From Clostridia bacterium (GTDB lineage: Bacteria > Bacillota > Clostridia > Christensenellales > CAG-1252): 41,316 nt of DNA. Both the position numbers and the translations under genes were made by a program. The notes beneath the pieces were generated by a model, which made no database searches, was not told the origin of the DNA, and was given only the letters and a program-made list of their open reading frames with translations. Location of the stretch: positions 1 to 41,316 of the forward strand of contig JAFTOZ010000064.1 in NCBI GenBank assembly GCA_017463565.1, given 5' to 3'. Positions 2-25,243 of this stretch are shown one piece after another (position 1 is the first letter of the stretch; the number at the start of each line of letters is the position of its first letter).

Positions 2-3000
2 GGTCAGAACTACCGTGCCGACACCTGGTCTCCTGCTGTGTTGGTGATCAGCCAGTTGCACTATATCGATGCCGAAATCGGTGATCTGCGTCTGTACGTG
101 GATAGCGAGCCTTCCATTCTGTACGATACCGCCACCCACTATCTGGGTGTGTTTAAGCGCGCAGAAGGCACCGGCTCGGAGAGCAACTTCAAGGATGCGT
201 TTGTTGCAGGAGTACCCGTAGATATCGGTGCTCTGCATATTACCATTCCCGTTCGCTATACCTACGACTACCGTCCGCACGGCGCAGTTGGTACACCCAT
301 CACCGGCGGTGTGTTCACCGCTGATCACGGCGCGTTGAATGCAGGTGTGTATACCATCACCGCAAGCATTGATGCAGATCCCAACGGTAACTACAGCGCT
401 TGGAGTGCGACCGCTACCTTGACGATCAACCGTCTGACTTGGGGCGAGGGTGGCCTTGGCTCTATCTACCTGGTAGGTAACGAGGGCAACGAGCAATTCT
501 ACGACGGCGTGGCACACTACGTGGGCGTGAACTCTACGAATGCTTATCGCAACGAGTACGTGCCTAATCTGTACTACTACATCGCAAACGGTGTGGTGAC
601 GCCTTCGGATGAGGATAACTACAACTTCAAGGTAGACGTGGAATACACCTACTACTTGGGTGAAGTTGGAACGGGTACGTATAACGAGACCTTTGTGTAT
701 GCACAGGATGCAGGTATCTATAATATCCAAGCAACCATTGCAGAAAACGTGAACTACGTGGGTAAGACTCTCCATACGACCTATACCATTCTGCGTCTGG
801 ATTGGGTGGCAGGTCAGTTGGGCGAGATCTATCTGCCCGAGGAAGCATCTCTCACCTTTGACGCAAGCTACCACTATCTGGGCATATCGCGTACCGAGGG
901 TGTGCACGTCGACCTGGCAGACGGCCCGATGCACAACATCACCGTGACGGTGGGTACCTTGGAATTGATCATTCCTGTGATCTATACCTACAGTATGGAC
1001 GAGTCGGGTCCCTACGTGACCTTTGAAGAAAATACCGCCTATAACGCAGGTACCTACTACGTGCGCGCTACCATCGCCGACACCACCAACTACGTTGGTA
1101 AGCAGATGGCAGGTAAGTTGGTGATCAACCGCATCCGTTGGACGGACGCTGACCACGACTTTGACTACCTCTACTTGGTGGGCGGTTCTCGCGCATATAA
1201 CGGTCAAGAGCAGTACGTGGGCGTTTCCGTTGCTGTCAACCAGGCAAATCCCGTATTGCTGACCAACTTGAGCTATCAAGTGACGGCAGAGGACGCTCTG
1301 TACCAAGGCAGCGAGGGCGGCAATATCAACGTGCCCGTGACCTATTTGTTCAACACGCAGGGCGAGGGCTACGAGTACGAGCGCTTTACCTCTGCTTTGA
1401 ACGCAGGCCCCTACTATATCAAGGCTGTCATTGAGGAAAATATCAACTACGAAGGTCTGGAACTGACTACCACCTATACCATCAATCCGTTGGTATTTGC
1501 CAACGATCCCGAGGGCAACGTGGACTATAACGCAGGTTATCTGGGCGAGTTGTACCTGACCGGTGACGTTCGTCCTTATGACGGTGCGGCACACTATATG
1601 AGCGTGCAGGATACTCCCGGCTATCTGGACAAGGCACCGCAAACCTTGGTGTACGTGTTGGACGGTGGCTACGAGTTGCGCCTGAACGTTACCTATAAGT
1701 TCAGCTACGATCGCAACAGCAACGACTATACCATGGACTTTACGTCGGCAACCGACGCAGGCGTTTACCACGTATGCGCAAGTCTGCCCGATGACGTCAA
1801 CGGTAACTACATTGGTTTCACCAAGGACGCCGTGTTGGAGATCACCAAGTTGGATTGGACGGGCACCGACGGCAACCTGCCTGAGATCTTTATGATGGGT
1901 GGCTCTACGCCTTACGATATGTTGACCCACTATGCATCCGTGAGCACTTCGGCAGGCCGTTGGAATGATACCGCTCCTTCTGCCTTGCACTTTGCATTCA
2001 AGGAAGGCGGTGTGCAACAGGTTGGCGCAGGCGAGGGCGCACTGTCGATTGACGTCATCTATACCTACGCAACCGAGCGTGAGGGCGAGTACAGTCAGGC
2101 CTTTACCGGTCTGCAATCGGTCGGCACCGTATGGGTTAAGGCTTATATCGGCAGTTCGCTCAACTATCACGAAAAGGTATTTGAGCCGGTTGAGTTGTCC
2201 GTGACGGCGCTGGTATTTGCCAACGATCCCGAGGGTCATATCAACGTCTCCGAGGGCTACCTGGGCGCGCTGACCTTTGAGGGTGCTACCTTGGTGTATG
2301 ACGGTGAACCTCATAGCATTGCCGTCGTTCACGACAACCTGAACGCACAAAACGAGTTGGTATTCACCTTGGCCGGCGGTACCCTCACCATTCCTTTGGT
2401 ATATACCGCATCTAAAAATGGCGGAGAATATCTGCCCTTCGACGAGGAAACCAACGCAGGCGAGTATCGAGTGCGCTTCTCCATCGCTGCCGGCGCAAAC
2501 GGCAGTTATGCCGCTACCACCGGTGAGGCTGTGCTGTGGATCAAGCCCTTCGAGACCACCATTATCTGGAACAAGGCATTTGATACAACCACCGTCTATA
2601 ACGGCTACGAGCAAGTGGTAACCGCTACCATCGAGATGGTGGACGGTGTCCACGATATGGGTCTGTTGTTCCTCAGCCGTGCTGAGTTGTTGGAGCTGGT
2701 TGGCTACGACTACGAGGCTATCCAAGCCGCAAGCACTGTGCTGACCAATAGCACGAGTATCATCTACGTGAACGGTGAGGGCACGCATACCGTGGATATC
2801 AGCGCAGTCAACAAGGACGGCGTGCTGTTCCACGCCGGCGAGTACGTCATGGTGGCTTTGTTTGACAACAGCAACTACCTTGTGACGAACTACAGTTCGT
2901 TGGTGCAAGAGTTGACGATTGAGAAAGCAATCATCGACGTGCGCGTCAACGGTAAGACCTTGACTTACGACGGTCTGCCTCACTATATCGATACCCATAT

Positions 3001-6000
3001 CGGATCTACCGAATATCTTGACGTCAAGCCCGCTAACCACATCATCGAGTTGGAGGGTAACGACGAGGCTACTATCTCCTATATGTACGGAACGGACGGC
3101 GAGTCCTACGGTTCTGAGTTTGAGCCTACCGCTAAGGCAGGTCACTATTACGTCAAGGTAGAGGTGCACCTCGACCTGTCCATCTCGGGCGACTACGAGC
3201 GTTGGGATGACTATGAGCATTGGGTGCGCTATGCAGAGTTGGTCATCGAGAAGAAGCAACTCTCCTTTGTGTCTACCTCTGACGAGGGCGATTGGACCAA
3301 GACCTACGATACCACCGCCGACTACTCTATGTACGAATTCAGCGGCGTAGTGGCTGCAGACGAGGGCAAGATCACTTGCAGTATCTCCTACGATAACAAG
3401 AACGCGGGCGAAGCAAAGAGCATGCAGATCAATCTGCAAAGCACGGAAGAGGGCTTGTTGGAGAACTACACCTACAACCAGATCACCTCAGGTGTGATCA
3501 AGCCCAAGGAGTTGCGCTTGGTAGACCTGAACTGGATCAAGACCTACGACGGTCGCGCAGAAGCAGCGCCCACCCTGGACGGTGTGCCCGTGGATCTCAA
3601 CGACGCTGCCGCATACGAGGAAGGCTACTACAAGTACGAATCGGATGAGGTGCAGGTTGTGGCTACCTTCAACAGCAAGAACGTGACCGAGGCAAGCGTG
3701 CTGAACTTCAGCCTGCAAGGTGCTGACGCTATGAACTATGTGGTTGGCAATACGCCTCCTGCGTTGGGCGCCGGCGAACACTATATCCTGCCCAAGGAGA
3801 TTGATATCACTTGGAGCGGTATCGATCTGACCTACAACAGCTACGTGCGTACTGCCGAGGCGTTGGCCGCCAACCGTGCTAATGGCGTGGAGGCCTATAC
3901 CTATACCTCCGCTCACTTTGACTTGGTGGGTGACGATATCGCAAACAACGTACTGTCCGCAGGTAACGGCGTATTCCTCTTTGCGCTGACCTACTACGAT
4001 AAAGACGACAACGTGATGCCTGCTTCCGCCTATAAGAATGCAGGTGACTATTCCGTGCGTGCCGATTTGGACGAGCGTGTGATGACGATTGACGTGGATG
4101 CCAGCTACGGCATTGACGCCGGTACCTACTATACCTTGAGCACCGAGGGCGAGGCTCTCAACTATGTGTTCAAGCCGTCCGATATGGCAAGAGATACCAA
4201 GATTGAAAAGCTGTTGCGCGTGGTGAATTGGGAATTCCCCGCAGGTGAGCTTGTGTACGACGGTACCTCTAAGGTCATCAGCGCAAGTATCGAACTGGTG
4301 GGTGCTGACCGCACCAACGTGGCGTACGGCGCAGACCTGAACGGCGTACTGCACCTCGGTGTTTTGGCACCTGACGTACCCCTCACGGACAACGGCGGTC
4401 TGGCCTGCGTGTCAGGCGTTGTGATGTTGCGTAACGGCGCGCGTACCAACGTGTTCCGCAATGCAGGTAGCTACGATATCTACGTGCAGTTGGTGCACGA
4501 GTTGAGTTTGAACTACGAACTCAACGACGGCGAGCGCAACGGTACCGTGATCAAGAAGGCGCCCATCGGCGATTACTTCCGCTTTGAGGGCTCGGTAGAA
4601 TATACCTACGAGCACGGTACTCGCTACTACTTCTTCGTGGCGCCCGGCGACGGTGACGCATTTGGTATGCTAGCATACGATCCTATCGTTGGTGGCGAAT
4701 TCTCGTACGATGACTACGAGCGCAGCTACGCATACGACGATATCCCCGTGCTTGTGCAGTACAACGGCGGTGATTTGAGCTTCTACGCCGAGCCTACTGC
4801 GTATGCATTGGGTAGCAACGGCGTGGTGAATGCCGGCTCCTACGTGATTGAAGCAAGCGTATTGGAGACGGAGAACTACGAGGGCTGGGTTGGCCGTGTT
4901 GAGATTGTCATCCATAAGGGTATCATCAATATCTTTGATATCGCTGACCGTTTGGATTCGTCCGGTGCTCCTTTGGTATACAACGGTAGCGCCTACGGTT
5001 TGTTTGCTGCCTACAAGGGCGCAGGCGACGAGGCAGGTTTGAAGTTCAATACGAACTATACCGAGTTGTATCTGCCCGACGGTACTGCAGCAGGTATCCA
5101 ATATTTGATGCACGAGCTGTCCTACACCGGCAAGTTGGCACAGGGCGAGAGCGGTATTTCTGCCGTGCCTTTGACGAGCAACGGTTGCTACGTAGACGCA
5201 TTGGGCAACGTGATTGCTGCCGATATCAAGAGCCGTTACGACGGTTCGCAACCCACCGTACTGCCCGAAACCAAGCAGGCCGGCTACTATTTGGTGAGTG
5301 CCGCCGTGATTGACCACACCAACTACCAAGATTGGACCGGTGAGGGTCTGTTGCGTATCATTCAGTACAACACGACGGTACTGTGGATGGCACGTCCCAG
5401 CGCAACCCAAGAGTTCGTGGGTATCAACGAGGTGGAATTCACCTACAACGGATACGATCAGATCGGCAACGTGATGGCGTACTTCCCGACCTATGCAGGG
5501 GACGGCGACGAGAACAACCGTGCATATCTGCAAATTCTGACGATGCCCGAATCGGGTCTGGCTCTGTATGAAGCTAACGGCGGTCAGCCCAACGAATTCC
5601 GTTTGGCAAGTACCTATTTGTTGGATTGCCAGTTGCCCGAGGCAGTGGGCGAGGATGCAGAGAAGATAGAATATCTTGCTCGCAACTACAATATCACCTA
5701 CTCCGAGACCAAACTCACGATGAAGAAGTTCACCGTAACCTTCACGTGGGACGTTGATTCGATCGGAACTGCTTATGATCCTGCGAACCCGCCCATTTAC
5801 GATGGTATCGCACACACGTTGTATGCACGCGGCGTGGGTGTTAGCTATTATGTGAAGATTGGCGGTTACGGCAACGAGAGAGTGACCAGACGTACCGAGG
5901 CTATCCCCTTGGTGACCGACGAGTTTGACGAGAATGGCAACCGCAGATGGGAGGCTATTGATGCAGGTGAAAACTACAAGGCTACCATCATCGGTATCGG

Positions 6001-9000
6001 TCAAACAGAAATCGACAACGCCGGCTCCTACTGTATGCAGAACGGTCAGGATTGCAATTACGCTGCCAGCACGTATCTCTACAACTACGAGCTGCCTTCG
6101 TCCGGTCTGGAACTGACCTGGAAGATCGCAAAGCGCCCGTTGACGGTTGTGATTGACGATCGCGACAGCATGCTGTTGCAGAAATATTACGACGGTATCG
6201 ATAAGTTCGAAATCGATCAGGCCGAGTCCACCTTTACCTTCGAGAAATCCATGGTAGATGACGGCGAGGGCGGATTGATCGAAGAGGCCATCACCCGTAA
6301 CGGTATGACCGTCTATCTGTACAATCAGACCGCAACCTATCGCGTCATTGGCGTTGACGGGGCGAACTCCTTCTCCTATACCATTCGCGGAATCTTGGAG
6401 AGAGATACCTACTCGCAACACAAGTGTCCTGAGTGTGACTACTTCTACTCGGAGAATGAATTCTCCAGCTATTCGTTGGAGAGCGAACTTGGCTATGAAA
6501 TCATGGCCGTGACCCCCGGTACTAAGTGGAACGATTTGGACGAAGGCTACGAGTGCCCGAGATGTAAAGAGATCAGCGGTGCCAATGCAAACCGTCTTGC
6601 AGAGGCGTTGTACAACATGTTGATCGTGGAGTACGACAACAAGAACATGATGGAATTCGTCATTTTGGCGCAACAGATTGATGCGTTCTATAATATGGCG
6701 GAAAAATTACTGGAAGGCACACCCGACTTCGGTGACGCCGAGATTGCATATTACTATCTGTTGTCTGCAAAACAGTTGCTTGATGAATCAACAACCATCG
6801 GTAGCAATCTCCCCTTGATCTTGGAACACGCTTATGCAGACATATATTTCTTGCAGGCAGCGGCGGTGTCTGCCATGATTGCGGGCTTGCCCGAAATACC
6901 TGCCGTTTACGGTGCATCTGCTCCGGGCTATTCCTTGTCGAGCTACGTTAACGTGATAATGCTCAAATCTTATTATGATAGTCTTGATACGGAAACCGAG
7001 GTGGGTGGAATGGATCCCAAGTCCTCTGTGGAGAACGTTGATAAACTGAGCGCTGCTATGGATGTAATCGATCTGCTTGTTGATACTGCCAGCGCAGACG
7101 ATTTCGATTCCGAAGTCGCAAGCAAACTGGGGTCTATCTCGAGTATGGAGCAGTACAAGGATTACGTATCTTTGCGTAGTGTATACGAATTACTGGGCGA
7201 AGAGAAGATGGAACAAGTGAGCGATGAAACCGTTAACACGTTGACGGTGGCGGGCAATGCAATCTGGGCTATACTGAAAGCCGAGATTGCAGAGATCCGT
7301 ATTTCCGACAGTCTGCACGACATTCGCTGGGCAGAGGGCGTTGTTCAAACCGTGATCCACAAGGGATATATCCAAATGGCAGATCTCATTCCCGGTAACT
7401 TCGTTGCTAACAACTTGAGCGGCGAGCGTGATGAGTTGGATGCGTACGACGCCGAAATCCGGAAATTATGCGTGGGAGATGATTATTACACCCAAGCTGC
7501 AGTTCGTGTAAATTTCGATACGGCCACTGCTGCGGAGATCATGCTCAATTCCGTTGCTGAAAGCAAGGGCTTAAACTCGGATGCCATGGCATATGTGCTC
7601 CGTTACTTGGCGTATGATCTGTATCAGGATATGGAGGTGATCACAAAGACGACCTACACGTCTGCTATAGAGAACGTTATGTCCATCAAGGAGATGGATT
7701 CAAGCACATATATTTACAACATAGGTTTATTTACCTATCTCTGGGAGAGATGGGAACGCATTAATTCTTACGAAGGAATTGGAGAAAGCGCTTGGGAGAA
7801 AGTAGATAGCGGCAACGCAAGATTTAATCAGCTTGAGGCATGCCTACAAGCAGCAAATTCTACAGTTCCCCATGTCAACTATGTGTACGCATGGCTAATG
7901 GGTATTGAAATTGGCGGTATAAACGAAGAAGATATTCTTACTTTGAATACGGCCCGACTGGTTTATGAACTGGCCCTAACAAACGGTGTTGAGGGTACGA
8001 CTGAAGATTTTGACGTGAGTAGCTTGGACATCAGTTCTCTTGAGCGCGAAGAGCGTGGCATGCAGAACGACTATATGAACGGCGTGATCTCTAATATCCC
8101 TCTGCCCACCACGCTGGAGAGTGGTATCGAAAACAACGGGAATACAAGTTTGGCTTACGCCGTTGGTTTGTATAATACCTTTGGCGCAACGCTACGTGCT
8201 GCGCTGGATACAAACGGACAACTCGAAGCGCGCCTGTCTTCTTACGAGTCTCTCTTTAACTTCGATGCAGTAGCAAGCATCATCAACGACCAGAGAACGA
8301 TGGAAGAGGTTCTCCTCACCTTCAACGGCCTGCCCCGTGACGTGGTTGGTCTGTATCTGGACGCAGATTTTGTCAACCGTATCGAAGGTATGGTGCTCAC
8401 GCAGTACATTGCCCTGCTTTCCGTGGACGGCAATCTATTGGACGTTGGCTTGCTGCACTATATCAAGGTGCGCACCGACGTAGAGAACGGTCGAATCAGT
8501 GAAGAAGCGTTGGCTTATATTACCAACTACGATCGCTTCTTGGAGCTTTACGATAAAGTGATGCTGCCCATCCCTAGTTTCAGCGACTTAGAGCCTGCTG
8601 TACAACGGTTGACTTCGTATCTTGATGGGAACGGCAAATTGGCGGGTAATCCCGACTTGAATATGATGATGGACCTGTATAACGCACGCTATATCTACAG
8701 TTATCTGAAGAATATGTCGTTTGACGTCGATAGTGTAGATTCAAGTGCGATGACAACGCTGGAAGGAGAAGTCGCAAGTTACGTGCTTTCTTTATTGAAT
8801 AACGTTAACGTTCAATCTAGCTACAGCGAGTATGAGCGCCGTCAGATTGCTCTCGCTCGTATCTACTACGATATGCTCCACGAGGACGTAATAAATATCT
8901 ATGGAATGATGGATTGGGCGAATCGCTTGATAGACCAGGAGAACAAGTTGCTCGCCGCAATTCGCGAGACCGCGATTACAAGGAAGAGCGAATTTGTAGC

Positions 9001-11788
9001 AATAAGCAATCCGATACAGCTTATTCCCTATCAGATCAATATCTACCACACGCACCTGGATGAGAATAGCGATAATATCTGCGACTTGTGCGAGGGCGAC
9101 GCTTCCTCTGACCGCTATCTCACGAATGCGGTAGATGCAACGGATGCAGACATACTGTGGAATACGTTTAAGAATGATAACTATGAGCGCACTGCTGACT
9201 CGGCTGGCGCTACCGGTTTGACTAACGTACCCGCTAACGTACTGCCCTTACCTCTGACGATAGAGTTCGGCGGTGATAAGTCTATGTACTACAACGGTAA
9301 CACCTTCTATCGAGAATATCATGGAATCGATTCATTTGCCTACATTGTACAGGACAACGTAGCACATATTGCTCCGTTTGGCGATTACGATGACGATGAG
9401 AACAGCGCAACCCTGTCGCAGGACGGCACAAGCATCAGCGTCGTGCTGTGGGATAAGTATATGACCAACGGTATCAACCTTACCTTCACCAAGGTAGTGG
9501 AGGATGAGCCCGAGGTGGATCCTTTGGCAGAAGACGAGGAGCCGGATGCCTTCGTCGGCACTTGGATCTGCGGCGATATGAAGTTGACCTTTGACGGAGG
9601 AGGAAACGGCGTCTTTGCAAAGGGTAATCAACTCACGAATGTTTCGCAATGGGGCGAGTTTATTTCTAAGGTCGTATTAACCCGGGACAAGACGGGTCAG
9701 GTCATTGATTCGGAATACGGCAGATTGATTGACGGTAACTACTTTGAATTTGCAATCTCCTTGGTGGGTTACAGCCACGAGGGTCGACTTGTTTGCAACG
9801 TATCCGACGCAAGCGATATCCCGCATAAGTTGATTCTGTTGCCAAACGAGGAGGGCGAGTTCGAAATCGTCACCAAGGATACCCTCGGTAGACAAAACTA
9901 CGTGATCACCGTTCAAATGGAAGAACTGATCGTCGAGGGCTACGAGGAGGTAGACAACGGTGTTAATACTGGCGAGATCCAGTACGACCCCTGCACCGTT
10001 ATGGTTCCGTTTGCAACGAAGCAAGAAGGTTTGACGGTACCTGCGGAGTTCCGTATCAAAAAGCGTCCGTTGGAGATTGTGTATAGCAACGTACTGCAAA
10101 GCTGGCAACAGGATGCGCCCATCACGATTACGGCAGGCAGTATCCAACGCGGAAAAACCAATTTGAATGCGTACGAGACGGATATCGATGACGAAGCATT
10201 CTTGGCACTGCTCAAAAAGGACGGTTTCCTGGATAGCGAGGGTAACCTCATCACCGGAGATCAGGCAGTCATCAAGTCGGACGCAACTTGGTGGGTTGAG
10301 GATAAGAATCATACGTACGAACGTTATCAAGGATTCATTATGTATCACGACCGTGAGTACGACCTCGATCCGAAGTTGAAGATTTATCTGACGGACGGCG
10401 GCGATTTGGCAGGTGCCCTACGCTCGAACAACGGTAGCAACTACGAGATCAATATGCCCGTGCTACAGGTGACGCACTCTCTCGTTGCAAGCGAGGAGGA
10501 TTACAGCTTCTACATTAGCACCGCTAAGGACGTGCAACTGATGGGTCTGGATATGACCGGTTTGTACGAGGCCCGTCATGATTTGTATAATCCGGTGGGC
10601 AAGATACCTACCTTCCTGCAAAAGAACGATATCGACATGATCGACGAGAAGGGCAATCTGGTGATCGTCAAGTCGGCAGGCATCTTCGAGGGTTACTACC
10701 GTGGCGACGGACACAAGATTCGTCACCTGGTGGTGATGAACGACGGTATCTACGGTGGCTTGTTTGCACAACTTGAGGGCGGTGTGATTCAGGACTTGCA
10801 CATAGAGGACGCACACGTCTATATGATCGGCGGTGCTACCGTGGGCGGTCTGGTTGGTAAGGCAAGCAACGCGCAAATCGTGAATAGCTCCTTCGCAGGT
10901 AAGGTCGAAGGTCACGTATACGTAGAAGCAGATGCAACGATTGCAGGTGGCTTGGTTGGTGAGGCATACAATACCTCCCTGCATAACGTAGCGGTAGCAG
11001 GATACGTGCAGATTGAAAACGCACATTCCGACTGGCATGACAAGGAGCAAAACATCTACGCAGGCGGTCTGATTGGCCACGCAAGCCATAATGAGCACTT
11101 TGGCTACACGCATATGGTTAGCGCAAGCTCCATAGCGGTTGCGGTATCTGCCGACGTGTGGACTGCAGAGTCCAATATGGGCTCTGTCATCGGCTACTGG
11201 CAGGACGTTGACGCAACTGCATACGAAGCGTTGTTCGAGTATGCAACCACTGCATATCTCACCAATAGCGCGACGATGCACAGCCTCTACGGCGGTGGAG
11301 ATGACGTGAGCGTTTGCAACTATGCGGTAGGTAACTACCATGCAGGCGCAGAAAGCCTGTTTGGCTCTTCCTACGATACCTTGCTTCTCAACGCCAATGA
11401 GGCCGCCCAACTGCTGGCTTCCAACGTGATGAAGGATCACTATCTGTCGACCGGTCTGTATAGTTACAGCGGTCAGAAGAAGGACGAGAAGGGTCGCAGT
11501 GCAGAGAATCCCTATCTCGTGAGCAACTACAAGCAAGTCTGGCTGATGGATATCTATCCTTGGTTGTCCTATCGCCAGGTTGGCAACATTACCTTCCCGC
11601 TGGCGACTGAAATACCCGTCTTCCGCCACGTGGTAGCCTACTTCGATCAGGCTACCTACCAGCTGACAAGACAGTCGCCAGTCAACGGAAGTGCCACAAA
11701 ACTCTGCTATTGCACGAATAACGGCTTGGCAGTCATCAACGTCATCGGGAAGAAGAACACCTCGTACACAGAAGGAGAAAACGCATGA
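2..11788 (+). CDS. Giant MBG/YDG-repeat surface protein with nested rubredoxin-like and helical regions (5' partial)
   Basis: The frame is open to the left edge, so the true start and any signal peptide are outside the window; more than 3,900 residues are visible. Residue numbers count from the GTG at 38. Residues 1 to about 2110 are roughly 18 divergent units of 75-130 residues with the pattern 'YDG..H' ... 'NAGTYYV.A.I....NY.G' ... 'L.I..L.W', typical of MBG/YDG beta-sandwich repeats in secreted adhesins. A rubredoxin-like four-Cys module follows (Cys 2130, 2133, 2173, 2176), then about 820 residues of predicted alpha-helix with no repeat pattern. A His/Asp/Cys motif at 3004-3020 precedes further beta-rich sequence, and GLUG-type repeats (GGLVGKA, GGLVGEA, GGLIGHA) lie near 3570-3690. 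I see no LPXTG or C-terminal membrane segment. The stop overlaps the next start (ATGA), so the two are translationally coupled. An adhesive or structural role is inference. Confidence 0.9.
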   Translation, partial: GQNYRADTWSPAVLVISQLHYIDAEIGDLRLYVDSEPSILYDTATHYLGVFKRAEGTGSESNFKDAFVAGVPVDIGALHITIPVRYTYDYRPHGAVGTPITGGVFTADHGALNAGVYTITASIDADPNGNYSAWSATATLTINRLTWGEGGLGSIYLVGNEGNEQFYDGVAHYVGVNSTNAYRNEYVPNLYYYIANGVVTPSDEDNYNFKVDVEYTYYLGEVGTGTYNETFVYAQDAGIYNIQATIAENVNYVGKTLHTTYTILRLDWVAGQLGEIYLPEEASLTFDASYHYLGISRTEGVHVDLADGPMHNITVTVGTLELIIPVIYTYSMDESGPYVTFEENTAYNAGTYYVRATIADTTNYVGKQMAGKLVINRIRWTDADHDFDYLYLVGGSRAYNGQEQYVGVSVAVNQANPVLLTNLSYQVTAEDALYQGSEGGNINVPVTYLFNTQGEGYEYERFTSALNAGPYYIKAVIEENINYEGLELTTTYTINPLVFANDPEGNVDYNAGYLGELYLTGDVRPYDGAAHYMSVQDTPGYLDKAPQTLVYVLDGGYELRLNVTYKFSYDRNSNDYTMDFTSATDAGVYHVCASLPDDVNGNYIGFTKDAVLEITKLDWTGTDGNLPEIFMMGGSTPYDMLTHYASVSTSAGRWNDTAPSALHFAFKEGGVQQVGAGEGALSIDVIYTYATEREGEYSQAFTGLQSVGTVWVKAYIGSSLNYHEKVFEPVELSVTALVFANDPEGHINVSEGYLGALTFEGATLVYDGEPHSIAVVHDNLNAQNELVFTLAGGTLTIPLVYTASKNGGEYLPFDEETNAGEYRVRFSIAAGANGSYAATTGEAVLWIKPFETTIIWNKAFDTTTVYNGYEQVVTATIEMVDGVHDMGLLFLSRAELLELVGYDYEAIQAASTVLTNSTSIIYVNGEGTHTVDISAVNKDGVLFHAGEYVMVALFDNSNYLVTNYSSLVQELTIEKAIIDVRVNGKTLTYDGLPHYIDTHIGSTEYLDVKPANHIIELEGNDEATISYMYGTDGESYGSEFEPTAKAGHYYVKVEVHLDLSISGDYERWDDYEHWVRYAELVIEKKQLSFVSTSDEGDWTKTYDTTADYSMYEFSGVVAADEGKITCSISYDNKNAGEAKSMQINLQSTEEGLLENYTYNQITSGVIKPKELRLVDLNWIKTYDGRAEAAPTLDGVPVDLNDAAAYEEGYYKYESDEVQVVATFNSKNVTEASVLNFSLQGADAMNYVVGNTPPALGAGEHYILPKEIDITWSGIDLTYNSYVRTAEALAANRANGVEAYTYTSAHFDLVGDDIANNVLSAGNGVFLFALTYYDKDDNVMPASAYKNAGDYSVRADLDERVMTIDVDASYGIDAGTYYTLSTEGEALNYVFKPSDMARDTKIEKLLRVVNWEFPAGELVYDGTSKVISASIELVGADRTNVAYGADLNGVLHLGVLAPDVPLTDNGGLACVSGVVMLRNGARTNVFRNAGSYDIYVQLVHELSLNYELNDGERNGTVIKKAPIGDYFRFEGSVEYTYEHGTRYYFFVAPGDGDAFGMLAYDPIVGGEFSYDDYERSYAYDDIPVLVQYNGGDLSFYAEPTAYALGSNGVVNAGSYVIEASVLETENYEGWVGRVEIVIHKGIINIFDIADRLDSSGAPLVYNGSAYGLFAAYKGAGDEAGLKFNTNYTELYLPDGTAAGIQYLMHELSYTGKLAQGESGISAVPLTSNGCYVDALGNVIAADIKSRYDGSQPTVLPETKQAGYYLVSAAVIDHTNYQDWTGEGLLRIIQYNTTVLWMARPSATQEFVGINEVEFTYNGYDQIGNVMAYFPTYAGDGDENNRAYLQILTMPESGLALYEANGGQPNEFRLASTYLLDCQLPEAVGEDAEKIEYLARNYNITYSETKLTMKKFTVTFTWDVDSIGTAYDPANPPIYDGIAHTLYARGVGVSYYVKIGGYGNERVTRRTEAIPLVTDEFDENGNRRWEAIDAGENYKATIIGIGQTEIDNAGSYCMQNGQDCNYAASTYLYNYELPSSGLELTWKIAKRPLTVVIDDRDSMLLQKYYDGIDKFEIDQAESTFTFEKSMVDDGEGGLIEEAITRNGMTVYLYNQTATYRVIGVDGANSFSYTIRGILERDTYSQHKCPECDYFYSENEFSSYSLESELGYEIMAVTPGTKWNDLDEGYECPRCKEISGANANRLAEALYNMLIVEYDNKNMMEFVILAQQIDAFYNMAEKLLEGTPDFGDAEIAYYYLLSAKQLLDESTTIGSNLPLILEHAYADIYFLQAAAVSAMIAGLPEIPAVYGASAPGYSLSSYVNVIMLKSYYDSLDTETEVGGMDPKSSVENVDKLSAAMDVIDLLVDTASADDFDSEVASKLGSISSMEQYKDYVSLRSVYELLGEEKMEQVSDETVNTLTVAGNAIWAILKAEIAEIRISDSLHDIRWAEGVVQTVIHKGYIQMADLIPGNFVANNLSGERDELDAYDAEIRKLCVGDDYYTQAAVRVNFDTATAAEIMLNSVAESKGLNSDAMAYVLRYLAYDLYQDMEVITKTTYTSAIENVMSIKEMDSSTYIYNIGLFTYLWERWERINSYEGIGESAWEKVDSGNARFNQLEACLQAANSTVPHVNYVYAWLMGIEIGGINEEDILTLNTARLVYELALTNGVEGTTEDFDVSSLDISSLEREERGMQNDYMNGVISNIPLPTTLESGIENNGNTSLAYAVGLYNTFGATLRAALDTNGQLEARLSSYESLFNFDAVASIINDQRTMEEVLLTFNGLPRDVVGLYLDADFVNRIEGMVLTQYIALLSVDGNLLDVGLLHYIKVRTDVENGRISEEALAYITNYDRFLELYDKVMLPIPSFSDLEPAVQRLTSYLDGNGKLAGNPDLNMMMDLYNARYIYSYLKNMSFDVDSVDSSAMTTLEGEVASYVLSLLNNVNVQSSYSEYERRQIALARIYYDMLHEDVINIYGMMDWANRLIDQENKLLAAIRETAITRKSEFVAISNPIQLIPYQINIYHTHLDENSDNICDLCEGDASSDRYLTNAVDATDADILWNTFKNDNYERTADSAGATGLTNVPANVLPLPLTIEFGGDKSMYYNGNTFYREYHGIDSFAYIVQDNVAHIAPFGDYDDDENSATLSQDGTSISVVLWDKYMTNGINLTFTKVVEDEPEVDPLAEDEEPDAFVGTWICGDMKLTFDGGGNGVFAKGNQLTNVSQWGEFISKVVLTRDKTGQVIDSEYGRLIDGNYFEFAISLVGYSHEGRLVCNVSDASDIPHKLILLPNEEGEFEIVTKDTLGRQNYVITVQMEELIVEGYEEVDNGVNTGEIQYDPCTVMVPFATKQEGLTVPAEFRIKKRPLEIVYSNVLQSWQQDAPITITAGSIQRGKTNLNAYETDIDDEAFLALLKKDGFLDSEGNLITGDQAVIKSDATWWVEDKNHTYERYQGFIMYHDREYDLDPKLKIYLTDGGDLAGALRSNNGSNYEINMPVLQVTHSLVASEEDYSFYISTAKDVQLMGLDMTGLYEARHDLYNPVGKIPTFLQKNDIDMIDEKGNLVIVKSAGIFEGYYRGDGHKIRHLVVMNDGIYGGLFAQLEGGVIQDLHIEDAHVYMIGGATVGGLVGKASNAQIVNSSFAGKVEGHVYVEADATIAGGLVGEAYNTSLHNVAVAGYVQIENAHSDWHDKEQNIYAGGLIGHASHNEHFGYTHMVSASSIAVAVSADVWTAESNMGSVIGYWQDVDATAYEALFEYATTAYLTNSATMHSLYGGGDDVSVCNYAVGNYHAGAESLFGSSYDTLLLNANEAAQLLASNVMKDHYLSTGLYSYSGQKKDEKGRSAENPYLVSNYKQVWLMDIYPWLSYRQVGNITFPLATEIPVFRHVVAYFDQATYQLTRQSPVNGSATKLCYCTNNGLAVINVIGKKNTSYTEGENA
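1491..2235 (+). repeat. 25-bp identical direct repeat, copies exactly 720 bp apart
   Basis: Two identical 25-base copies lie at 1491-1515 and 2211-2235, inside the giant repeat gene. They encode the same segment (LVFANDPEG) at the start of two repeat units. The 720-bp offset equals 240 codons, or two units of 120. Other units have diverged at DNA level, so this identity suggests a relatively recent duplication or gene conversion of a two-unit block. Confidence 0.85.
6425..6568 (+). other. Rubredoxin-like four-cysteine module inside the giant protein
   Basis: The encoded segment has C-P-E-C-D-Y-F-Y, then about 39 residues including P-G-T-K-W-N-D-L, then Y-E-C-P-R-C-K. Rubredoxins have CxxCGY-Y ... 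PGT-x-(F/W)-x-DL ... W-x-CPxCG, with 29-30 residues between the Cys pairs, so this copy carries an insertion of about ten residues. All four metal-ligand cysteines are present. Whether it binds iron or zinc cannot be told from sequence. Confidence 0.75.
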
Positions 11789-22476: not shown

Positions 22477-23289
22477 TTATTTATCGAGGGAAAATACAGG
22501 CAGAACGGCACCGCTATAGGTTTCTACAATATAATCGTAGACGGCCTTGCTTTGCAGGACGGATACGAGAGCCTGGATCTTGGGATCGTTCTCGTGGCCT
22601 TTTTTGACTGCAATCAGGTTGGCGTAGGTTTGTGCACTATCACTGTCTGCGCTTTCGCGTGCGATAGATTCATCGAGGTTCAAGCCTGCCTCCAGGGCGT
22701 AGTTGCCGTTGATGACCGCCAACACACCGCCTTGCTTGTAGGTGGCTGCCAACATATCTGCTGCCATCAAGGTGATTTCGTTGCCGTTATCTTCGGCGAT
22801 ATCGTACTCGGTCAGACTATCGTTTGCGGTGGGGTTGCCTTTCAGCGTGATATAGCCTTCCGATGCCAACAACAGCAGCGCACGAGTCAGGTTGCTATCG
22901 TCCGAAGGAACGATGATGGTGTGGCCCGATTTGCCCTCTGCGGTGCCAAACAAGCTCATAGGCTCGTAGTGGATCTTAGCAACCGACACAAGCTGCGTGC
23001 CGTTCTTGCTGTTGAAGGAATTCAGATAGGGCTCGTGTTGGAAGTAGTTTGCGCTCAAACTGCCGTCCTCAAGGCTCACGTTGGGCAACACGTAGTCGTC
23101 GTATACGCGGATTTCCAAGGTATATCCCAACTTTGCCAACTCACCCTTGACTTGCTCCAAAATCTCTGCGTGGGGCACCGCGGTGGCGCCGATCACGATC
23201 GTGTACTCATCAATTTCTTGGCAACCGACTGCGCCGACAACCAGCGTCAACAGCACCAAAACAACCAACAAAGCAATCCATTTTTTCAT
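22477..23289 (-). CDS. metQ: Methionine ABC transporter substrate-binding lipoprotein
   Basis: 270 residues of the NlpA/MetQ family. The lipoprotein signal ends VGAVGC (Cys 23). The binding fold begins YTIVIGATAVPHAEILEQV, followed by NYFQHEPYLNSFN (MetQ consensus is close to ANYFQH.PYL), YEPMSLF and IIVPSDDSNLTRALLLL, the usual order of family blocks. It delivers methionine to MetNI at the membrane. The start overlaps the metI stop by four bases (ATGA). Substrate preference (L-Met, D-Met or a derivative) cannot be read from sequence, but the gene set metN-metI-metQ is complete. Confidence 0.93.
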   Translation of the reverse strand: MKKWIALLVVLVLLTLVVGAVGCQEIDEYTIVIGATAVPHAEILEQVKGELAKLGYTLEIRVYDDYVLPNVSLEDGSLSANYFQHEPYLNSFNSKNGTQLVSVAKIHYEPMSLFGTAEGKSGHTIIVPSDDSNLTRALLLLASEGYITLKGNPTANDSLTEYDIAEDNGNEITLMAADMLAATYKQGGVLAVINGNYALEAGLNLDESIARESADSDSAQTYANLIAVKKGHENDPKIQALVSVLQSKAVYDYIVETYSGAVLPVFSLDK

Positions 23290-24020
23290 AGTGTATTCTC
23301 CTTTTTGTTCTTTTTCTTTTTACCGATATGATGAATGCGTTTATCCGTGCGTTTTGCAATCAGCATTCCCAATTCTTGAATAACCTGCACGATCACCATA
23401 GAGAGCGCAAGCGCTACCCACATAACGTCTTTGTTTTGACGTTGGTGGCCGTTGATGATGGCAATTTTGCCCAAGCCACCGCCGCCGATGGTAGACGCCA
23501 TTGCCGAATAACCCAACACCGTCACCGCCGAAATCACCAGACCCACCAACAAGGCAGGCTTAGCCTCGGGCAACAGTACCTTGAAGATGATTTGGCTATT
23601 GCTTGCGCCAAGCGCACGTGCCGCCTCAATCACCCCTTTATTGACTTCCTTCAAAGAGGACTCGACCATACGTGCCACGTAGGGTGCCGCTGCAATGGTG
23701 AGCATAACGATCATCGGACCGTTGCCTACCGACTTGCCAAGAAGGAAGTTTGCCACGGGCAGTAGCGTTACCATAAGGATCACAAAGGGAATGGATCTCA
23801 GGATATTGACTACGATACCCAGCGTTTTGTTTACAACCAAGTTTTTGCAAAGACCGTTTTTGTCCGTCACCGTGAGAATCACACCCAAGGGGAGACCAAT
23901 CACGTATGCAAGCGCCAGAGAGAGCACCGTCATATAGACGGTTTCCCATATGGCCATCCACAGATCGCCGGAGGAGGACAGGTTTTGCAATTCTTTCGAT
24001 ACCAACAGTAAGTTTTCCAT
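23286..24020 (-). CDS. metI: Methionine ABC transporter permease
   Basis: 244 residues with about five membrane helices. It starts in the metN stop (TAATG, one-base overlap) and ends in the metQ start. The cytoplasmic coupling loop EAARALGASNSQIIFKVLLPEAKPALLVG carries the EAA motif that docks onto MetN. The N-terminal SSSGDLWMAIWETVYMTVLS and RSIPFVILMVTLLP blocks are typical of MetI. The C-terminus is strongly basic (KKKKNKKENTL). Confidence 0.94.
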   Translation of the reverse strand: MENLLLVSKELQNLSSSGDLWMAIWETVYMTVLSLALAYVIGLPLGVILTVTDKNGLCKNLVVNKTLGIVVNILRSIPFVILMVTLLPVANFLLGKSVGNGPMIVMLTIAAAPYVARMVESSLKEVNKGVIEAARALGASNSQIIFKVLLPEAKPALLVGLVISAVTVLGYSAMASTIGGGGLGKIAIINGHQRQNKDVMWVALALSMVIVQVIQELGMLIAKRTDKRIHHIGKKKKNKKENTL

Positions 24021-25012
24021 TATGCCCCCTTACGCACGTACGCAACGTGCTCCTCGTCCAAGTGGGCGCACACCTCTCGAATGGCGTCCTCGTTATCCTC
24101 TACCTCAATGACCATATGTCCGTACATTTTGCCGTCGATATCCTTCATGTCGGCGAATACGATACTGACGGGTGTTTTGATCTTCAAGATCAACTGGGAC
24201 ACAACGGGCATGAACGTCTTTTCGCCGTTGAACAACAGGCGCAAGCGCACGCGTCCTTCTACGGGATTTTCTCTTGCTTTTTCGGGCAGGATCAAGCTCT
24301 TTGCAATGCCCGAGGTGGGGTTGCAGAAGATCTCTGCCATTTCGCCTGCCTCTGCGATACGTGCGTGATCCAATACCGCCACCTTGTTGCAGATACTCTC
24401 TACCACCTTCATTTCGTGGGTGATAATCACGACGGTAACGCCCATGGTCTGGTTGATTTCCTTCAACAATTCCAGGATAGAAACGGTGGTACTTGGGTCG
24501 AGTGCACTGGTGGCCTCGTCACACAACAAATAACTGGGATTTGTGGCCAAAGCGCGTGCAATCGCGACTCTTTGTTGTTGTCCTCCCGACAGTTCGCTGG
24601 GGTAGGCGTTCTCTTTGTCTGCCAGTCCGACCGTCTTCAAAAGGGCGCGCGCACGTTCCACCCGCTCCTTTTTGCCTACCTTTGCCAACTCCAAGGGGAA
24701 GCAAACGTTGCCCAAAGCGGTGCGTTGCTCCAACAGGTTAAAGTGTTGGAAAATCATGCCGATACGGCTACGCATAGCGCGCACCTCTTTCATACTGATT
24801 TGGGTCAGGTCCTTTCCGTCCACGATCACGCTACCGTGAGTGGGGCGCTCCAACATATTGATACAGCGAATCAGGGTGCTTTTGCCTGCGCCCGACAAAC
24901 CGATGATGCCGTAGATATCGCCGTCCTCAATAGTCAAGCTCACCGAATCGAGTACGGTGATGGGTCCTTCCTTTGTGGGGAACTGTTTGGTTAGGTTTTG
25001 AATTTCAATCAT
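24020..25012 (-). CDS. metN: Methionine ABC transporter ATP-binding protein with C-terminal NIL domain
   Basis: 330 residues. Walker A GLSGAGKST at 38-46, Q-loop near 89, signature LSGGQQQR at 141-148, Walker B LLCDEATSALD at 162-172 and the switch His at 199. Residues from about 255 form the NIL domain, which in MetN binds methionine and inhibits transport when the cell is replete. First gene of metN-metI-metQ. A GAGG element lies four bases before the ATG. The 195-base leader upstream contains a peptide ORF and two terminators, so transcription into this gene is probably conditional. Confidence 0.95.
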   Translation of the reverse strand: MIEIQNLTKQFPTKEGPITVLDSVSLTIEDGDIYGIIGLSGAGKSTLIRCINMLERPTHGSVIVDGKDLTQISMKEVRAMRSRIGMIFQHFNLLEQRTALGNVCFPLELAKVGKKERVERARALLKTVGLADKENAYPSELSGGQQQRVAIARALATNPSYLLCDEATSALDPSTTVSILELLKEINQTMGVTVVIITHEMKVVESICNKVAVLDHARIAEAGEMAEIFCNPTSGIAKSLILPEKARENPVEGRVRLRLLFNGEKTFMPVVSQLILKIKTPVSIVFADMKDIDGKMYGHMVIEVEDNEDAIREVCAHLDEEHVAYVRKGA

Positions 25013-25024
25013 ACGTCCTCATAG

Positions 25025-25054
25025 AAAACCCGAAGTCAACGTTGGCTTCGGGTC
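25025..25054 (-). terminator. metNIQ leader terminator 2
   Basis: Stem CCCGAAG/CTTCGGG with a partly self-complementary loop (CAACGTTG), followed by TTTTC. It lies directly before the metN ribosome site and shares bases with the proposed antiterminator. Confidence 0.7.
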
Positions 25055-25066
25055 ATAGTTCATAAT

Positions 25067-25096
25067 AAAACCCGAAAGGCGATTGCTTTTCGGGTC
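25067..25096 (-). terminator. metNIQ leader terminator 1
   Basis: Stem CCCGAAA/TTTCGGG extended by G-C pairs, followed by TTTT. It stands 13 bases upstream of the second terminator and has nearly the same 5' arm (GACCCGAA). Confidence 0.7.
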
Positions 25097-25138
25097 ATAT
25101 TTGCTGCTCTGGATTTTCTCACACCAAAACGCACGCAA

Positions 25139-25186
25139 CTATGACCTTGCGTGGTGCATTCGCATGATGAGAGTACTCCATTTCAT
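25139..25186 (-). CDS. Putative Met-rich leader peptide (15 aa) of the metNIQ operon
   Basis: The reading frame is MKWSTLIMRMHHARS-stop. A GAGGT ribosome site (25196-25192) stands five bases before the ATG, and the predicted transcription start is about 20 bases upstream. Met codons are at positions 1, 8 and 10 (AUG-CGA-AUG). The stop codon lies in the loop of the downstream hairpin. A ribosome slowed at codons 8-10 would block the 5' arm of that hairpin yet leave GGTCATAGTT free; one at the stop codon would cover it. Too short to prove by coding statistics; the case rests on the ribosome site and layout. Confidence 0.5.
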   Translation of the reverse strand: MKWSTLIMRMHHARS

Positions 25187-25213
25187 AGCAAACCTCGTAT
25201 CTTTGATAATCCC

Positions 25214-25243
25214 ATTATGCCATAGCGCAAAATGCCGTGTCAA
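25214..25243 (-). promoter_or_regulatory. Promoter of the metNIQ operon
   Basis: Minus strand TTGACA-N18-CATAAT, with transcription expected from about 25207. An inverted repeat TTATCGA-N6-TCGATAA (25267-25248) lies immediately upstream of the -35 and could bind a regulator. Confidence 0.7.

Follow-up and report, generated by a model that had tools for sequence, protein, structure and literature searches.

A putative ribosome-mediated attenuator with a methionine leader peptide upstream of metNIQ in a clostridial genome

Leader-peptide attenuation is usually associated with Proteobacteria. In the trp, his and leu attenuators of enterobacteria an open reading frame (ORF) rich in cognate codons and preceded by a Shine-Dalgarno (SD) sequence is followed by protector, antiterminator and terminator helices, and the position of the stop codon lets a ribosome that terminates there hide the antiterminator strand. 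The clostridial leaders presented here differ in that they would sense Met, on which the initiator tRNA also depends, and control an importer. For Firmicutes, leader peptides have been predicted for His upstream of hisZ and hisS (PMC2965389) and for Leu, with S. aureus ilvD as an example (PMC5794164), and a survey of Actinobacteria reported no Met leader peptides (PMC1262725). In Streptomyces lividans the leader peptide metL (MSTTSDRTPATEATTTPGARCMCRRMCAF) was proposed to precede metNIQ (PMC8079986). It resembles the clostridial leader as a Met(Cys)-containing peptide before the same operon but is leaderless, has no recognisable Rho-independent terminator and was predicted in a single genome (PMC8079986), whereas the clostridial ORF is SD-preceded and is accompanied by intrinsic terminators, antiterminators and comparative support. 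In Campylobacter jejuni MetL precedes metBA (PMC3847290), with a translation start seen by TIS profiling (PMC3847290, PMC11955535), and CJsORF19 (MMYQMR) precedes the metQ-like gene Cj0772c (PMC11955535). These are likewise Met-codon peptides before Met genes for which attenuation was proposed, albeit in another phylum, without sequence relation to the leader described here and with a narrow range (C. jejuni, C. coli and C. doylei); no analysis of alternative structures was seen in the text consulted (PMC3847290, PMC11955535). Finally, the Met T-box and SAM-I (S-box) leaders of Firmicutes regulate the same genes and also act by premature termination, the T-box sensing Met-tRNA and the S-box SAM; the clostridial leader differs from them in having no aptamer, sensing being assigned to the translating ribosome.

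A first-pass annotation of the locus was not aware that such a leader had been described for metNIQ. In view of the proposals for S. lividans (PMC8079986) and C. jejuni (PMC3847290, PMC11955535) this was only partly right. No paper on a clostridial Met attenuator was found in an open-access library, and the leader type is therefore new within an already known kind. What is new is a widespread and well-supported clostridial Met attenuator; Met leader peptides as such had been predicted before.

The locus lies in a window of 41,316 nucleotides (the whole stretch of DNA that was analysed), the first quarter of which is taken up by an open reading frame of 3916 codons (38-11788, plus strand). The genes metN, metI and metQ, identified by their best-scoring NCBIfam models, follow each other in this order on the minus strand (22477-25012; Table 1). 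Three promoter-like sites were found in the region as compared to 0.6 expected. The anatomy given by the first-pass annotation was recovered in full, namely the SD-preceded short ORF with AUG-CGA-AUG at codons 8-10, the protector hairpin CACGCAA/TTGCGTG with the stop codon in its loop, and the tandem intrinsic terminators, both of which lie between the leader ORF and metN. The two Met codons of this ORF are few for the family. The leader folds with z = -4.3, better than 200 of 200 dinucleotide shuffles.

Table 1. Features of the metNIQ leader and operon in the window
Feature	Position	Strand	Basis or detail
Promoter, sigma-70-type, TTGACA-18-CATAAT, TG before -10	25214..25243	-	11/12 consensus positions
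Shine-Dalgarno GAGG of leader ORF	25193..25196	-	Sequence; 6 nt upstream of ORF
Leader peptide ORF	25139..25186	-	ATGAAATGGAGTACTCTCATCATGCGAATGCACCACGCAAGGTCATAG = MKWSTLIMRMHHARS, then stop
AUG-CGA-AUG, putative sensing Met codons 8 and 10	25157..25165	-	Sequence
Protector hairpin CACGCAA-[GGTCATAG]-TTGCGTG, UAG stop in loop	25132..25153	-	Folding
Antiterminator strand A, GGTCATAGTTGC	25135..25146	-	Pairs with 5' arms of both terminators
GCAAATATGACC, partner of A at terminator 1	25093..25104	-	Duplex and folding
Terminator 1, GACCCGAAAAGCAATCGCCTTTCGGGTT, then T-run	25069..25096	-	-14.3 kcal/mol
AACTATGACC, partner of A at terminator 2	25051..25060	-	Duplex and folding
Terminator 2, GACCCGAAGCCAACGTTGACTTCGGGTT, then T-run	25027..25054	-	-13.9 kcal/mol
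metN, methionine ABC transporter ATPase	24020..25012	-	Best NCBIfam model TIGR02314, E 1.7e-107, below its equivalog cut-off
metI, permease	23286..24020	-	Best NCBIfam model NF008049, E 1.3e-55
metQ, substrate-binding lipoprotein	22477..23289	-	Best NCBIfam model NF008285, E 1.5e-28

How could such a short ORF control the operon? We consider it highly likely that metNIQ is controlled by transcription attenuation of the trp type, with the ribosome that translates the leader as the sensor of charged Met-tRNA. This assessment is based on the anatomy, on conservation in kind across 12 families, on covariation in a sub-family that includes a congener and on fold switching, all computed here; from these we infer that the leader peptide is translated, that the ribosome stalls and that metNIQ responds to Met. 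When Met is ample, the ribosome would pass AUG-CGA-AUG, reach UAG and cover strand A (GGTCATAGTTGC); with A covered the terminators would form and transcription would end before metN. When Met-tRNA is short, the ribosome would wait at Met codon 10 and cover CACGCAA, leaving A exposed; as the terminators are transcribed, A would pair with the 5' arm of the first and subsequently with that of the second, and more polymerases would reach metN. Without translation the protector hairpin would keep A in its loop, termination being the default.

The first-pass annotation had noted a 10-nt complementarity at the base of terminator 2. Indeed, GGTCATAGTT (25146-25137) is the perfect complement of AACTATGACC (25060-25051), but terminator 2 is not the sole partner, as GGTCATAGTTGC and GCAAATATGACC at terminator 1, a match that had been overlooked, pair at 11 of 12 positions. 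The latter is statistically the stronger match (z = -3.4, equalled in 1 of 200 shuffles, versus z = -1.6 and 15 of 200 for terminator 2). The two terminators are near-identical, with the common sequence ATGACCCGAA...TTCGGGTTTT, and because either 5' arm can pair with A, a single antiterminator strand would serve the two of them; it could be imagined that A overcomes them by moving from the first to the second. In folds of growing transcripts A was fully paired with terminator 1 before the 3' arm of the latter (10.5 of 11 bp formed in a transcript ending before that arm) and then with terminator 2, and this only while the ribosome was upstream of the stop codon. Since this pairing is complete by the time the 3' arm emerges, a kinetic effect of A on the terminators is likely according to these folds. 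The calculations predict that the antiterminator excludes the terminator by perfect or near-perfect pairing, but in the window copy the overlap amounts to only about 4 bp of each terminator stem.

To model the effect of translation, a simulated ribosome with its front edge 12 nt past the first base of the A-site codon was positioned at the individual Met codons and at the stop codon in turn. At Met10 it covers the 5' arm of the protector and ends where A begins, and at UAG it covers A; a ribosome stalled at Met8 does not prevent the protector from forming. The computed terminator probability in the window was 0.77 at Met10, lower than in 40 of 40 shuffles, versus 0.96 at the stop codon. For the proposed logic, in which stalling frees strand A and a ribosome at the stop codon hides it, equilibrium folding of the window leader thus predicts a partial effect, with A serving both terminators; the smaller switch is due to A overlapping only about 4 bp of each terminator. 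Across leaders, terminators were near 0.9-1.0 at equilibrium with the ribosome at the stop codon. Of 48 leaders, 18 had at least one Met codon at which the probability dropped under 0.5, as compared to 3.1 expected from shuffled spacers, and it came near zero in L005, L011, L012, L019, L020, L026, L033, L037, L066, L100 and others; the remaining 30 of the 48 gave no strong switch in the equilibrium calculation.

T-box and S-box elements are frequent at clostridial met genes, and at seven metN loci of the order a T-box is found instead (L040, L042, L078, L081 and L088 by Rfam, L031 and L034 by motif only). It could therefore be argued that an unrecognised riboswitch or T-box-like aptamer for SAM, Met or uncharged tRNA controls the terminators and that the short ORF is incidental. 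The first-pass annotation had seen neither element in the leader, and the searches agree: no Rfam family matches within the window or at 14 tested Met-leader loci, the T-box model (RF00230) does not match in the window, and the SAM-I model (RF00162) matches neither in the window nor in six genomes of the genus, so that no riboswitch covariance model of Rfam scores on this leader. In the window genome (G000) the sole T-box candidate was sub-threshold and on another contig, and no phage record matched the leader. Moreover, conservation extends to a Met-coding frame and its SD site but to no aptamer-like core, and the clustering of Met is kept while the RNA sequence differs widely between families. 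An aptamer is improbable on these grounds.

The strongest support for attenuation through Met codons, as the first-pass annotation had proposed, comes from comparison across the order, in which neither the ORF nor its pairings proved peculiar to the window. Among 396 genomes, 98 have a close metN homologue, and the 99 upstream regions were read. An SD-preceded short ORF with a Met cluster precedes 53 of the 99 homologues, in 12 families, with peptides such as NRMMRM, MVMCMC, MMMGM, MMMPMSCMSMMC and CAMRMNMMC. In a blind test, short ORFs were picked without regard to Met and compared with shuffles; Met was 8.3-fold enriched and Cys 2.2-fold, every other residue at most 1.1-fold. At least three Met in eight codons were found in 42 of 98 leaders versus 0.08 expected, and chance ORFs as an explanation of the Met clusters are ruled out by these shuffles. 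The only congener with metN, G003, encodes the leader peptide MKRFAYTHSMRMQSSRATSAGLLPC followed by a stop, with the same AUG-CGA-AUG, and its antiterminator is a perfect 10-bp pairing of GTCCCGAGCG with CGCTCGGGAC to its terminator (z = -6.0); here, as in the RA-type leaders described below, the overlap of antiterminator and terminator is full. One RNA sequence common to all metN leaders was rejected, as the families differ widely and only the 18 RA-type leaders align. An element common to all Met genes was rejected as well, since metK leaders of the same order lack it (Met-rich ORFs in 0 of 30) and the RNA model described below is confident for metN and metY alone. Met clusters are present in a few class-level relatives, and named metN loci outside the order are mostly without them, Gemmiger and Chryseobacterium being exceptions. 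The designation clostridial follows the MetN relatives that are nearest among the named ones. In the large family f4 (peptides CAMRMNMMCAC...CLCCVA) antiterminators were mostly not found by duplex or fold calculations. The metN leaders of f4 (e.g., L060, L064, L066 and L071) carry a Cys-rich peptide end, CLCC(V/A)A, after the Met cluster and, at the stop codon, a conserved segment resembling GCGCCGCTTGA.

Compensatory base changes were sought in an alignment of the RA-type sub-family, 18 leaders comprising 16 upstream of metN (including the congener) and two upstream of metY. Their strands A (CCCGAGC), B (GCGCGGG), C (GCTCGGG) and D (CCCGAGC followed by a T-run) form the mutually exclusive helices A:B (protector), A:C (antiterminator) and C:D (terminator), with standard pairs in 93%, 94% and 96% of the alignment cells, respectively. 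Pairing of the antiterminator and terminator exceeded 500 of 500 shuffles and that of the protector all but 3 of 500; all three helices beat every slid register, and double changes occur in each. In L024 one C-G pair is replaced by U-A in all three helices simultaneously, the substitution being present in each of the four strands. The last Met codon is located 10 nt before the core of A in 17 of 18 RA-type metN leaders, a set that includes L006 and L058 and leaves out the two metY leaders. An RNA model built on the 18 aligned leaders, with the window left out, was run on 247 genomes and gave confident matches before metN (10) and metY (2) alone; the weak matches L282-L284 resemble plain terminators or unrelated genes. 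Within 1.5 kb around the finding the best match spanned the entire window leader (11.9 bits, E 8e-4), and the window copy is therefore probably a diverged relative. In its own leader the protector arm is upstream of A, the arrangement known from trp, whereas the RA-type protector strand B lies downstream of A. With a ribosome at the last Met of an RA-type cluster, part of A is already masked in the folding calculations and the terminator can form, and the sensing codons of this type would therefore be the earlier Met codons; the RA-type protector would come into play once a ribosome has completed the ORF, and behind it. The two metY genes, L227 (=L280) and L230 (=L281), carry the RA-type Met attenuator of metN; L227 encodes RMCRM..SRAEGRG with CTCCCGGGCAG / CTGCCCGGGAG.

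The RA-type metN peptides have an SRAE-RG motif in common, and some metY leaders of the order encode a conserved FRFGRMC motif. This would be in line with nascent-peptide arrest of the tnaC/erm type, in which the ribosome is stalled by the peptide itself, Met or SAM serving as the ligand, and not by Met codons that lack charged tRNA. The SRA..RG motif is, however, accounted for by the conserved CCCGAGC and GCGCGGG RNA strands, and between families the metN leader peptides are unconserved except for Met and partly Cys, rendering peptide arrest about as improbable as an aptamer. Least probable of all are constitutive tandem terminators that shield metNIQ against transcription entering from upstream, with ORF and pairings arising by chance, since the two near-identical terminators, although favoured by equilibrium folding in most states, stand between a good promoter and metN, the match of A to terminator 1 is rare in shuffles, and chance is excluded for the family by the Met enrichment and covariation across the order.

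Attenuation at Met codons remains the preferred reading, and the clostridial leader peptide very probably decides between an early stop and continued transcription of metNIQ. Methionine import in one large clostridial order would then commonly be controlled by leader-peptide attenuation, replacing S-box and T-box RNAs, through a well-defined RNA family that is absent from Rfam and that annotation of uncultured bacteria will miss. As initiation also requires Met-tRNA, a ribosome-free leader would represent a starvation state too. At equilibrium the ribosome-free RNA of L005, L011, L012, L014, L016, L019 and L037 prefers the antiterminator, unlike in trp; that of the window prefers termination. 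It is conceivable, albeit rather doubtful, that the clostridial leaders form a large, hitherto unrecognised Met attenuator class in which a shortage of initiator Met-tRNA acts as a signal in its own right and Cys codons may add a second input. With the ribosome-free leader of several relatives already folding into the antiterminator, the opposite of trp, failed initiation and stalling at Met codons would then both switch the importer on. As no protein can be started without Met, the switching logic lends itself to direct testing.

As to methionine physiology, the window genome and G003 have metN and no metY, the congeners G001 and G005 have metY and no close metN, and metY is absent from 25 of the 39 metN-bearing genomes in the comparison; the window genome probably obtains its Met chiefly through the importer. 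In four members of the genus (G000, G001, G003 and G005) metN and metY are mutually exclusive, that is, importer or own Met synthesis. Outside the order, Chryseobacterium taiwanense (Bacteroidota; L156) encodes a leader peptide ...TMMMYCCMPELRNCCG about 180 nt before metN, followed by a terminator, which is possibly an independent Met/Cys attenuator. Several families, including that of the window, have a conserved SD-preceded short peptide, FRFGRMC(x)RC, about 110-160 nt before metY (L216, L218, L219, L221, L222, L223, L226 and L235). Its amino-acid sequence is conserved beyond the Met and Cys codons, pointing to an arrest peptide or to a sensor of Cys/Met.
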